From: an uncultured Allofournierella sp.
GTDB taxonomy: Bacteria; Bacillota; Clostridia; Oscillospirales; Ruminococcaceae
Assembly: GCA_944382775.1 (NCBI GenBank)
Contig: CALWNI010000008.1
Span: 1 to 56,369, forward strand
Length of the DNA stretch: 56,369 nt
Reading direction: 5' to 3'
A program made the position numbers and the translations under genes. Within the stretch, counting starts at the first letter, position 1. Every line of letters starts with the position of its first letter. Shown here piece after piece: positions 3,666 through 51,091 of this stretch. The notes beneath the pieces are model-generated. The model saw only the letters and a program-made list of their open reading frames with translations. It did no database searches and was not told the DNA's origin.

Positions 3666-3988
3666 TGTCGTCGCCTCCTATTTTAATTTTCTTGCCTAGG
3701 CGGCCGATTCGTTTACTGAACACAGCTCCGGGTGTTTCAAAATTTGGCACGATAAAAACCGGTGAACCGCTAGGCAGTTCCCCCGGGATAATATACGGCA
3801 AATTGAATTGGACATTGGTACGCCGCGCAGAATGCGACAGTGTACTTATCCCTTCGCTCTCAGTAATTGTTTCGCCCGGTTCTAGATCGGACATACTCCG
3901 CGGAAAAACCCGTTATGTAACGGCAACCTCCCGCATCAACGCATATCATGGCTTGCGTAGCTTGATACACAAGCCATTTGCAGCCGAG
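3666..3988 (-). promoter_or_regulatory. structured leader of the S10 operon mRNA
   Basis: The stretch between the predicted start of transcription and rpsJ has several clean hairpins on the minus strand. In order: GGCUUG/CAAGCC near the 5' end; a GCGG/CCGC stem enclosing CCGUU/AACGG; CGGA/UCCG with loop GUAUG; and GAACUGC/GCGGUUC nearer rpsJ. An ORF runs through part of it but overlaps rpsJ out of frame and looks like chance. Leaders of this operon are autoregulated by L4 in several bacteria; that this one is too is inference. Confidence 0.6.
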
Positions 3989-48706: not shown

Positions 48707-49642
48707 TTATAGCCACTTTTTCCAACGAGCCAACAAAATTGCAGCAACGGTTGCAATGCCTGCCACACCCAGCACAATAGCAAACCCAAAGGGGTTGGAC
48801 TCAAAGGGTACCGGCACGTTCATGCCCCACAAACTGGACACAATGGTAGGCACGGTTAAAATAATGGTTACCGCCGCCAGCAGTTTCATAACAATGTTCA
48901 AGTTGTTGGAAATAACCGAGGCAAAGGCATCCATGGTACCGGACAAAATGTCGCGGTAGATGCTGCTCATTTCCATGGCCTGCTTATTTTCGATGATAAC
49001 ATCTTCCAGCAGGTCGGTATCTTCGGGGAAATCGCGCACAAAGTCCATGCGCAGCAATTTCTCCAAAACAATCTCATTGCCTTTCAGCGATGTGGAGAAA
49101 TACACCAAGCTCTTTTCTAAGCCCAGCATCTGAATCAGCTCTTTGTTTTTCATACTGATGTGCAGCTCATTTTCCACACGGGTGCTGGCTTTATCAACCT
49201 GGCGCAGATAGAACAGGAACAAACTTGCATTGCGGTACAGCATCTGCAATGCCATACGCTTTCTTTTTTTGGTGCTGCAAGCTTTTACCAGCCCCTCGGC
49301 AAATGCACGGGGCAAAGCGGTTTCTTTTAAGCAAACTGTGATAATGTTTTCTTCGGTTAAAACAATGCCAAACGGAAGGGTGGAATACACAAAACTGTGG
49401 CCCTCTGTTTCAACGGTGGGGGTATCCACGATGATTAAGGTGTGGCCATTGTCTTCTTGTTCAATACGGCTGCGTTCTTCTTCGTCCAATGCAGCGCGAA
49501 CCAAATCGGGGTCAATGTGCAGCTGAGCACATACCCGACCGATTTCTTTTTCATTGGGGTTGCACAGGTTGATCCATGCGCCGGGGCAGATTTGATCCTG
49601 CTCTAACATGCGACCGCCGTCGCTCAAATAAATGTTAATCAT
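48707..49642 (-). CDS. corA: CorA family magnesium/divalent cation transporter
   Basis: A 311-residue CorA-type protein: a cytoplasmic funnel domain (about 1-245) and two C-terminal membrane helices joined by the GMN loop (SSLWGMNVPVPFESNPFG), the selectivity filter. The basic tail ARWKKWL follows. It forms pentameric channels for Mg or other divalent ions. I use ATG 49642, about eight bases after AGCAGGGA. Upstream lies a long leader with a small ORF and alternative hairpins that suggest regulation by translation of the leader peptide. Confidence 0.9.
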   Translation of the reverse strand: MINIYLSDGGRMLEQDQICPGAWINLCNPNEKEIGRVCAQLHIDPDLVRAALDEEERSRIEQEDNGHTLIIVDTPTVETEGHSFVYSTLPFGIVLTEENIITVCLKETALPRAFAEGLVKACSTKKRKRMALQMLYRNASLFLFYLRQVDKASTRVENELHISMKNKELIQMLGLEKSLVYFSTSLKGNEIVLEKLLRMDFVRDFPEDTDLLEDVIIENKQAMEMSSIYRDILSGTMDAFASVISNNLNIVMKLLAAVTIILTVPTIVSSLWGMNVPVPFESNPFGFAIVLGVAGIATVAAILLARWKKWL

Positions 49643-49701
49643 ATTCAATCCCTGCTTTCCTGGTAATGCAGCAAGACAAAACATCTTGCTGATAACGGCA
49701 C

Positions 49702-49750
49702 AAAAAGGCCGCCCCCGATGCAGGCGTTTTTTATCATTAACACAAAACGC
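49702..49750 (-). promoter_or_regulatory. alternative hairpins in the corA leader (candidate attenuator)
   Basis: On the minus RNA, GCGUUUU (49744-49750, in the last codons of the leader ORF) can pair perfectly with AAAACGC (49724-49730). Instead, CGCCU (49722-49726) can pair with GGGCG (49710-49714), giving a short hairpin followed after three bases by UUUUU (49702-49706). The two structures share 49724-49726 and exclude each other. The second hairpin is a weak but plausible terminator. Ribosome position on the leader ORF would decide between them (inference). Confidence 0.5.
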
Positions 49751-49817
49751 AGACGTTCAGGGCAGCATGGCCGTTTTCAATTGTCATACACATTCGACTA
49801 CTCGGGTCGCCGTCCAT
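49737..49817 (-). CDS. 26-residue leader peptide upstream of corA
   Basis: A short ORF starts at ATG 49817, eight bases after a strong AAGGAG, and ends in TAA at 49737. It begins MDGDPSSRMCMTIENG and ends HAALNVCVLC. The acidic-proline start MDGDP recalls MgtL (MEPDP), whose N terminus destabilises the ribosome at low Mg and thereby switches on mgtA in enterobacteria. The start-codon region CAGCAUGG can pair with CCAUGCUG inside the ORF (8 bp). That this is a Mg sensor is inference, but position, RBS and downstream gene agree. Confidence 0.55.
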   Translation of the reverse strand: MDGDPSSRMCMTIENGHAALNVCVLC

Positions 49818-49860
49818 GCTGTCATCTCCTTACATTCTAATTGGGTCTTTGCCCTCAATT

Positions 49861-49889
49861 AGTTTATGCCCCTAATAGGGGTTTGTCAA
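49861..49889 (-). promoter_or_regulatory. promoter of corA and its leader, with spacer palindrome
   Basis: Minus-strand TTGACA (49884-49889), 17-base spacer, TAAACT (49861-49866). The spacer contains the perfect palindrome CCCCTAATAGGGG (49869-49881), a likely protein-binding site. The transcript start is followed by a hairpin, CTAATTG/CAATTAG. Confidence 0.65.
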
Positions 49890-50047: not shown

Positions 50048-51091
50048 TCAATCGATTACATATACATTTACTTGCTGCACACCGTTCATCAACGCTTCGT
50101 CGTAGGTTTCGTAAAACAGGTCAACCAAACAGGTGCCGCTCATAAGCGAAGTACCGGTATCGGTAGCAATGGCATAGCCATATACCATGCGACCGTCGGC
50201 ACTGGTAATATACAGTTTTGTTCCGTAAGGAATCAAATTGGGGTTTACTGCTACTGTACCGTAGCTTAACCCTAACCCGGAAGCACCGCGCCCACGGCTG
50301 GCACTGTATCCGGTTGCACGGCCGGTGTAAACCGCTTTGTATGTGCTGGGTACACCGTTAATTACTTCGGGGCCTTCCAGCGGGGAAACGGGGGCACCGG
50401 CTTGGTATGCCTTAATAATGGTATTTTGCGGGGCTACGGTTTGCTCCACGCTTACCACTTGACTTGATTCAACCACTCCGTCTACAACACGTTCACGACT
50501 TGTAATTTCATTGGTACCTTCGTGCCCTTGTTGCAATACTTCGGTATGTCGCTTGTTGCGGTAGTACAAACTGGTATAAACATACTCGGTTTCATAGGGG
50601 ATGCTTTCGTATGTTACGGTATCACGGTATTCTACCCGATGCACCGTAACGGGGGTTTGGCTGTCAACCAATGTGTGCAGGCTAGGCTCGGTATAATCGT
50701 GTTCGCCAAGCTCAATTCCGCACGCTTGCAACGCTTCTTCTACGGTGGCATTTGCCAGTTTGGTTACATAAGTTTGGTCATCTGCCATAACGGTAATGGT
50801 AACAGCACGCTGAATGTTTAAACTTGCCAAGTTACCGTTGTAAGCCGTGTAGTGAACATTGTCCCCTTCATCGGCAACAATTCCGGATAAGTTCATCAAG
50901 GTTTCCGGGTCTTTTGCGCAGGTCATCAGGGTTCTGCTTGCGCCTTTTGAGTCGGTAACTTTTACAACATGCAATGCATTGAACAACACAAACAAGGTGA
51001 TGGACAGGCAGCACAGGGTGATTAGACAGGCCCATAATTTTGCCGGAACAGCAAAACGGGTGTGCCGCATACGTTCTGTGAATTTTGTCAT
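50048..51091 (-). CDS. exported YabE-like protein with DUF348, G5 and 3D domains
   Basis: A 347-residue protein with an N-terminal membrane anchor (about 18-40). A ubiquitin-like DUF348 repeat follows (residues about 85-150), then a G5 domain (RVEYRDTVTYESIPYETEY, about 150-225), and a C-terminal 3D domain whose three Asp lie in IATDTG, CLVDLFY and DEALMNG. The 3D fold belongs to the RlpA-like double-psi barrel group with lytic transglycosylase members such as YabE. Role in peptidoglycan turnover or spore germination is inference. RBS AGGAGAAG. Confidence 0.87.
   Translation of the reverse strand: MTKFTERMRHTRFAVPAKLWACLITLCCLSITLFVLFNALHVVKVTDSKGASRTLMTCAKDPETLMNLSGIVADEGDNVHYTAYNGNLASLNIQRAVTITVMADDQTYVTKLANATVEEALQACGIELGEHDYTEPSLHTLVDSQTPVTVHRVEYRDTVTYESIPYETEYVYTSLYYRNKRHTEVLQQGHEGTNEITSRERVVDGVVESSQVVSVEQTVAPQNTIIKAYQAGAPVSPLEGPEVINGVPSTYKAVYTGRATGYSASRGRGASGLGLSYGTVAVNPNLIPYGTKLYITSADGRMVYGYAIATDTGTSLMSGTCLVDLFYETYDEALMNGVQQVNVYVID

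Follow-up and report, generated by a model that had tools for sequence, protein, structure and literature searches.

A probable Mg2+-linked leader peptide upstream of corA in an uncultured Allofournierella sp. and its counterparts before Mg2+ importer genes of Firmicutes

The stretch of DNA analysed here (the window, 56,369 nucleotides) originates from an uncultured Allofournierella sp. of the Ruminococcaceae and carries a corA gene on its minus strand. The closest named relatives of this gene are found in three Gemmiger strains, Fournierella massiliensis and Candidatus Fournierella pullistercoris (91-94% identity). It encodes the sole CorA found in its own genome, which is 84% complete; no MgtE was found in the same genome, and this absence is weak evidence because of the incomplete assembly. 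A covariance-model search found no M-box (RF00380) in the window or in its own genome, and the corA leader of the window matches no Rfam family at the gathering score of that family. The same-strand gene upstream of corA (50048-51091) encodes a DUF348/G5/3D-domain protein, and an S10-Clostridia ribosomal protein leader (RF03136, 49.2 bits) lies apart at window positions 3872-3948. The features of the corA locus are the following, all on the minus strand:

48707-49642 (-): corA, 311 aa, matching PF01544 (5.6e-49)
49650-49660 (-): Shine-Dalgarno (SD) region of corA, GGAAAGCAGGG, from alignment, with GAAAGCAGG invariant in 12 sequences
49710-49726 (-): weak terminator-like hairpin of 5 pairs, from a promoter/terminator scan, not conserved
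49720-49724 (-): CCTGC, proposed anti-SD, with 5 pairs to the corA SD that lie outside the MFE fold of the window
49724-49750 (-): hairpin of GCGTTTT (49750-49744) with AAAACGC (49730-49724) across the stop codon of the upstream ORF (uORF), from the MFE fold
49737-49817 (-): leader ORF MDGDPSSRMCMTIENGHAALNVCVLC, 26 codons plus stop, from the ORF list, relatives and gene-blind scans
49794-49802 (-): codons 6-8 of the leader, AGT AGT CGA, a rare-codon run behind the DP motif, from codon counts
49798-49806 (-): CCCGAGTAG, tentative long-range partner of CTGCATCGGG (49723-49714), from RNAalifold on 12 close relatives
49803-49817 (-): codons 1-5, M-D-G-D-P, proposed ribosome-destabilising sensor, from enrichment over controls and codon variety in relatives
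49823-49831 (-): SD of the leader ORF, AAGGAGATG, from sequence, recurring in close relatives
49861-49889 (-): promoter-like element TTGACA-17-TAAACT, from the promoter/terminator scan

The original prediction placed a 26-codon ORF with a strong ribosome binding site (RBS) upstream of corA, and both elements were confirmed: the ORF runs from 49817 to 49737 and the 3' end of AAGGAGATG lies 5 nt from its ATG. In close relatives (e.g., L002-L011) TTGACA and a second hexamer resembling CATA(A/C)ACT recur by eye upstream of the uORF. The locus has two marks of an MgtL-type leader, a short uORF with its own SD ahead of a Mg2+ importer gene, in the 5' leader, and an acidic/proline motif in its first codons, M-D-G-D-P, conserved as protein. 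It is the start of the ORF that exceeds chance in this leader, as judged by comparison with relatives.

Three sets of relatives were compared. For set A, the upstream DNA of corA was collected at the 80 closest hits among named genomes, and 77 of these were used (L012, L026 and L027 came without upstream DNA). Set B holds 113 CorA genes of a phylum sample, weaker or partial matches being left out, and set C 46 of 52 relatives in the order of the window, the window itself and five weak matches being left out; some set C genomes are near-duplicates of set A records. The search was for ORFs of up to 60 codons that have an SD in front and start with M.[APGSD][DEG]P, no more than 300 nt upstream, a limit that misses more distant leaders such as those of family handle f50. 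Such a leader stands upstream of corA in the window (1/1), in 54/77 loci of set A, 31/46 of set C and 12/113 of set B, these counts referring to related species and not to independent events; shuffle means are 0.0, 0.2, 0.8 and 0.2, respectively, and other long ORFs of the same loci have 2 in 428. None was found within 300 nt of corA in 23/77, 15/46 and 101/113 loci of sets A, C and B. The leaders of set B span 9 family handles, as do those of set C. The strict form M[DE][AG][DE]P, with acidic residues at both positions 2 and 4, is present in the window, in 48/77 loci of set A, in 6/113 of set B and in 0/46 of the order sample, and its controls gave 0 in shuffles and 0/428 at other genes. Since residue 2 is non-acidic in much of the window's order (MSPDP, MKPDP, MNPDP), a DxD motif with two acids does not hold for all leaders.

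Residue 2 is acidic (D or E) in 57 of the 88 distinct leaders, and residue 4 is D in 72, G in 10 and E in 6. Positions 3-5 are constrained by the search pattern, and therefore it is synonymous variety rather than invariance that carries the point: proline 5 is encoded by CCT (55), CCG (18), CCC (13) or CCA (2) and aspartate 4 by GAC (62) or GAT (10). The start is conserved as protein across relatives, the same residues being written with varied codons; synonymous variation among relatives was a check proposed in the original prediction. Judged from its relatives, the leader is a real ORF and no product of chance. A second style of start, M-[D/E]-[D/P]-P-x-P or M-[D/E]-P-[I/V]-P, was seen upstream of other corA genes (L088, L106, L162, L109, L169, L171, L175), often behind a GGTGGTAAG-like SD; examples are MDDPYPG, MDPVPDYGS and MEPIPLDR, and the style resembles the MgtL motif EPDP. 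Three further loci (L160, L161, L163) carry SAM riboswitches in the region upstream of corA, on the other strand.

Genomes were also scanned with a pattern derived from the corA leaders, an SD plus RTG-GAY-GSN-GAY-CC, genes being ignored in the search. It found 7 sites in 291 genomes of the class and 0 when read backwards. Each of the 7 is a short ORF standing immediately ahead of a Mg2+-transporter gene: six, the window's own among them, precede corA (Pfam) and the seventh precedes a gene that combines PRC, MgtE_N and CBS domains and has a Nramp homologue behind it. Mg2+ import by an Nramp-related protein is described in the available part of PMC4072509. Four of the 7 sites belong to f162, one of the 4 family handles represented. 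A slightly looser pattern run on 398 genomes of the phylum gave at least 70 listed sites, 69 distinct starts including that of the window, against about 16 in the backward control. The 69 sort into 38 short ORFs (at most 60 codons and no long open frame upstream) and 31 others. Mg2+ importer genes follow 27 of the 38, corA in 14 cases and mgtE in 13, with 82-638 nt from leader start to the start of the transporter alignment; these 27 represent 10 family handles, 12 of them being from f50. In 22 no SD-preceded ORF of at least 40 codons intervenes between leader and transporter, and the five with such an ORF all belong to f50. Two short-ORF sites (L344, L350) have no gene in reach, and at nine (L366, L367, L372, L374, L395, L397, L398, L407, L408) no Mg2+ transporter was found behind the ORF; 15 of the 31 sites outside the short-ORF class were compared and gave no transporter match. 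At the level of sequence, these results show a specific link of the leader with Mg2+ importer genes.

One of the sites, L397, has a leader-like ORF beginning MDADPGKKCPSQED and no recognisable transporter gene in the following 1.5 kb. Six f50 loci (L383, L384, L386, L388, L391, L393) carry MDGDP[G/A]S... leaders far upstream of corA, the CorA alignment beginning 392-638 nt past the leader start, and 4 of the 6 have an intervening short frame.

M-boxes were sought with cmscan at 64 of the listed mgtE places and found in 14. A leader stands behind the riboswitch in 7 of these 14, with the starts MDSDPLP, MDSGPLP (twice), MDPGPLP, MDSSPLP, MDSGPSNYYSR and MSDPLPRERR; MDSSPLP (L291) was read by eye after its M-box was known. 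No leader was seen at five others (L306, L313, L317, L320, L321). The remaining two, L297 and L318, have acid/Ser-rich ORFs (MVADSTGND..., MNAGSSGD...) that lack the acid-Pro start and have the segment DIKPPNLC in common. At mgtE loci without M-box a leader of this kind lies within 400 nt in 5 of 50, two of the five being more than 300 nt upstream. Among the eight MgtA loci over the family cut-off, acid/proline-rich short ORFs lie upstream in L241 and L242, which are of the same genus, and in L243 and L245; three were scanned, and L241 and L243 have an M-box while L245 has none. Positions 243-475 of L241 also match Group II intron D1-D4-6. Both Acetobacterium corA loci scanned (L065, L068) combine an M-box with an MDADP leader; these loci have in addition an FMN riboswitch downstream of corA, the M-box being upstream. 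At corA of L165 an M-box is present and no leader was found, and leaders without M-box hit are seen at L335, L339, L340, L351-L353, L358-L360, L362, L363 and L370 among the loci scanned. Some mgtE, corA and mgtA leaders therefore stand in series behind an M-box Mg2+ riboswitch.

The codons behind the motif are unusual as well. Codon statistics were based on the 88 distinct leaders among 98, and on 66 of the 88 for the expectation from each locus' own corA. At codons 6-12 of the 88 leaders, AGT accounts for 73 of 92 Ser, CGA for 48 of 88 Arg and TTA for 21 of 42 Leu codons; the corresponding shares within corA at these loci are 6%, 6% and 5%. In the 66 leaders the corresponding counts are AGT 53/67 vs. 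5.0 expected (maximum of 2000 simulations 15), CGA 42/71 vs. 5.3 (maximum 12) and TTA 17/34 vs. 2.4 (maximum 9), an expectation that ignores the relatedness of the leaders; 43 leaders picked by hand, roughly one per clade, give AGT 34/44 and CGA 24/40. Past codon 12, AGT (4/72, expected 6.3) and CGA (5/90, expected 6.7) are at background and TTA is somewhat high (10/68, expected 5.0). The corA of the window itself uses AGT for 4 of 19 Ser and CGA for none of 15 Arg codons. The bias follows the reading frame, AGT occurring 73 times in frame vs. 4 and 5 off frame and CGA 49 times vs. 3 and 6; it is less clean for TTA (21 vs. 13 and 2), and AGA has little frame preference (17, 12, 13). An RNA motif rather than codons is less likely, AGT and CGA being nearly always in frame at codon 6, 7 or 8, and their common frame may be inherited within clades. 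A general use of rare codons at gene starts was considered and set aside, codons 2-12 of corA giving AGT 13/132 and CGA 6/126 (235 loci). We suppose that the rare codons could act as a brake holding the ribosome on a destabilising start.

The RNA between uORF and corA gives a less uniform picture. The pairing of GCGTTTT with AAAACGC across the stop codon, as originally predicted, does appear in the MFE fold, and hairpins resembling it occur at the stop codon in the folds of L002, L003 and L009. Before the corA start GAAAGCAGG is invariant in 12/12 sequences (the window and 11 close relatives), and CCTGC lies near the uORF stop in 10/12 by alignment column, which together point to masking of the corA RBS and not to termination. 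At the place equivalent to CCTGC, the SD pairing comprises 10 or more pairs in L002 and L009; in the window itself the best SD duplex is formed with GCCATGCTGCCCTGA, which lies within the uORF, instead of CCTGC. In 26 of 88 leaders the anti-SD:SD duplex does better than 95% of the shuffles; the rank of the window is 7/100. Masking of the corA SD is suggested in relatives and weak in the window. The RNAalifold consensus for the window's group tentatively pairs codons 4-7 with the anti-SD region.

In a Limiplasma-type group, TCCGGGC inside the uORF can pair with the anti-SD GCCCGGA as an alternative to SD:anti-SD. Over 10 sequences, uORF:anti-SD has 84.3% of its cells paired and SD:anti-SD 98.3%; these pairings exceed slid versions of themselves, a comparison favoured by the structures having been drawn from one such sequence. 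Covariation, proposed as a further check in the form of compensatory stem changes, is thin: only one pair of the uORF:anti-SD helix is changed on both sides, and shuffles do not separate the pairings, the observed pairing being reached by 109/500 for uORF:anti-SD and 500/500 for SD:anti-SD and the uORF:anti-SD covariation score by 17/500. Folding of 38 hand-picked leaders with the ribosome footprint blocked gave a mean SD exposure of 0.35 with the leader free and of 0.40, 0.36 and 0.46 with the ribosome at codon 5, codon 9 and the stop, respectively, under a rough SD definition that picks AAAGCA in the window's group; it lends no support to the assumed sign (low Mg2+ = ON) and slightly favours the opposite one. 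The RNA output switch is not uniform among leaders.

That the ORF exists and is linked to Mg2+ is well supported by comparison with relatives. We consider it fairly probable, on sequence and analogy, that it works in cis as a Mg2+-linked leader peptide in the manner of MgtL/MgtQ, through which low Mg2+ might turn corA on. A Mg2+-linked MgtL-like leader is by far the best reading. Such starts, written with different codons, precede corA in many Firmicute families, and other Mg2+ importer families are also preceded by them, partly behind an M-box. The ribosome carrying nascent M-D-G-D-P would be unstable and held together by Mg2+, and AGT AGT CGA directly after the motif would prolong this unstable state. 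At low Mg2+ the ribosome would drop off within the first codons; with sufficient Mg2+ it would translate on to the stop codon. The stretch of leader that it occupies would determine the choice of pairings near the uORF stop and hence whether the corA RBS is masked, abortion at low Mg2+ switching corA on by analogy with mgtL, mgtQ and corL. For the window we infer that the uORF is translated, that drop-off depends on Mg2+ and that the rare codons contribute to it, as well as the sign of the response and its RNA switch. The whole suggests that the ribosome itself may serve as a magnesium gauge before unrelated Mg2+ importers of Firmicutes. Somewhat less firmly, we favour the broader view that starts of the type M-x-[G/A/P]-[D/E]-P followed by rare codons are nascent-chain Mg2+ gauges found throughout Firmicutes, placed before unrelated importers, with clade-specific RNA outputs and in some cases in series with the M-box. 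CorA, MgtE, the Nramp-type operon and probably MgtA would be under such gauges.

Other explanations have to be weighed against this. The original prediction saw here a possible Mg-sensing attenuator in a Firmicute: the Mg2+-linked MgtL-like leader finds support in the relatives, and the intrinsic terminator does not. Transcription attenuation at about 49726-49702 can draw on the 5-pair hairpin followed by a T-run in the window, but this hairpin is weak and the 3-kb stretch of the scan has 2 terminator-like sites where 4.4 are expected by chance. By eye, a T-rich stretch in a possible GGC/GCC-type loop is found at the same place in the window, L009 and L004; in the 12-sequence alignment a comparable T-run is absent from L002, L003, L005, L025 and L006-L011, so that none is conserved among the 11 aligned close relatives. 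A conserved GC hairpin with T-tract, as expected of a transcription attenuator, was not found in this alignment, and we regard termination as very unlikely. That the ORF is a chance or unconserved one might be read from the unremarkable folding energy of the leader (z -1.48; 13/200 shuffles fold as well or better); it is contradicted by the leader counts in relatives and by the gene-blind scans, and its probability is negligible.

The leader could also sense charged tRNA (Pro, Asp, Ser, Arg) or EF-P and precede Mg2+ importers only incidentally. The conserved proline with rare AGT and CGA immediately behind it would fit, Salmonella mgtP responds to charged tRNA-Pro (available part of PMC8092293) and prolines of mgtL reportedly play a part (PMC11552253, in the portion accessible). 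We find such a sensor unlikely, the leaders having one or two Pro codons and no run, the downstream genes being unrelated Mg2+ importer families rather than amino-acid genes, and an M-box standing ahead of the leader in some loci. Translational coupling or ribosome occlusion alone, which would set a constant level of corA translation with nothing being sensed, accords with uORF stops 13-15 nt from the corA start or overrunning it in Acetobacterium and several Oscillospirales. It leaves unexplained the acidic/proline start common to corA, mgtE and Nramp-type operons, the confinement of AGT/CGA to codons 6-12 and the uORFs ending 50-140 nt upstream, and is decidedly improbable.

Under the preferred reading, that of a Mg2+-linked leader peptide, the sensing of Mg2+ through ribosome drop-off, which the papers found describe for a few leaders of enterobacteria, would have a conserved Firmicute counterpart before several Mg2+ importer families and be a general strategy. 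The natural diversity of the leaders could then be used to tell destabilising nascent chains from others, and the part played by slow codons in drop-off would become directly testable. Where leader and M-box stand in series, one mRNA would measure Mg2+ twice, by RNA and by ribosome, raising the question of why a cell should measure one ion twice per transcript. Among the open-licence PMC matches listed, a scope in which subscription papers and preprints mostly do not fall, none describes leaders of this kind in front of Firmicute corA or mgtE genes.

Known systems provide several points of comparison. The M-box (ykoK, RF00380) likewise controls Mg2+ transporter genes, and in Mycobacterium tuberculosis it is followed by a conserved uORF, Rv1805A, whose peptide the available part of PMC12810186 describes as confined to mycobacteria and without a clear role; unlike these systems, the window and its own genome yielded no M-box. 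A corA RNA motif is reported only in Gammaproteobacteria and metagenomic DNA, according to the accessible text of PMC6429828. The corL uORF also precedes corA, in E. coli and Salmonella, its translation being inverse to corA expression (PMC11552253, as far as available), but it is Rho-dependent and gammaproteobacterial. The mgtQ uORF before mgtB of Salmonella shares acidic residues near its start (D2/E5), and ribosome abortion is proposed to free the mgtB RBS masked by a stem-loop; unlike the window's leader, mgtQ is an ORF of 8 aa lying between two genes within an operon, and the available excerpts of the same source do not present it as a Mg2+ sensor in its own right (PMC8092293). In mgtL of E. 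coli and Salmonella mgtA, ribosomes drop off at the EPDP motif (E2, D4) at low Mg2+ (PMC11282234, available part). As here, a short ORF with an acidic/proline start precedes a Mg2+ importer gene, and D4-P5 of M-D-G-D-P occupy the same positions, whereas mgtL belongs to Enterobacteria, a P-type ATPase gene and Rho-dependent termination. The Firmicute leaders differ from it in preceding corA, mgtE and Nramp-type genes, in often having Gly or Ala in place of Pro3, in the rare-codon run behind the motif and, in some loci, in the M-box ahead of them.
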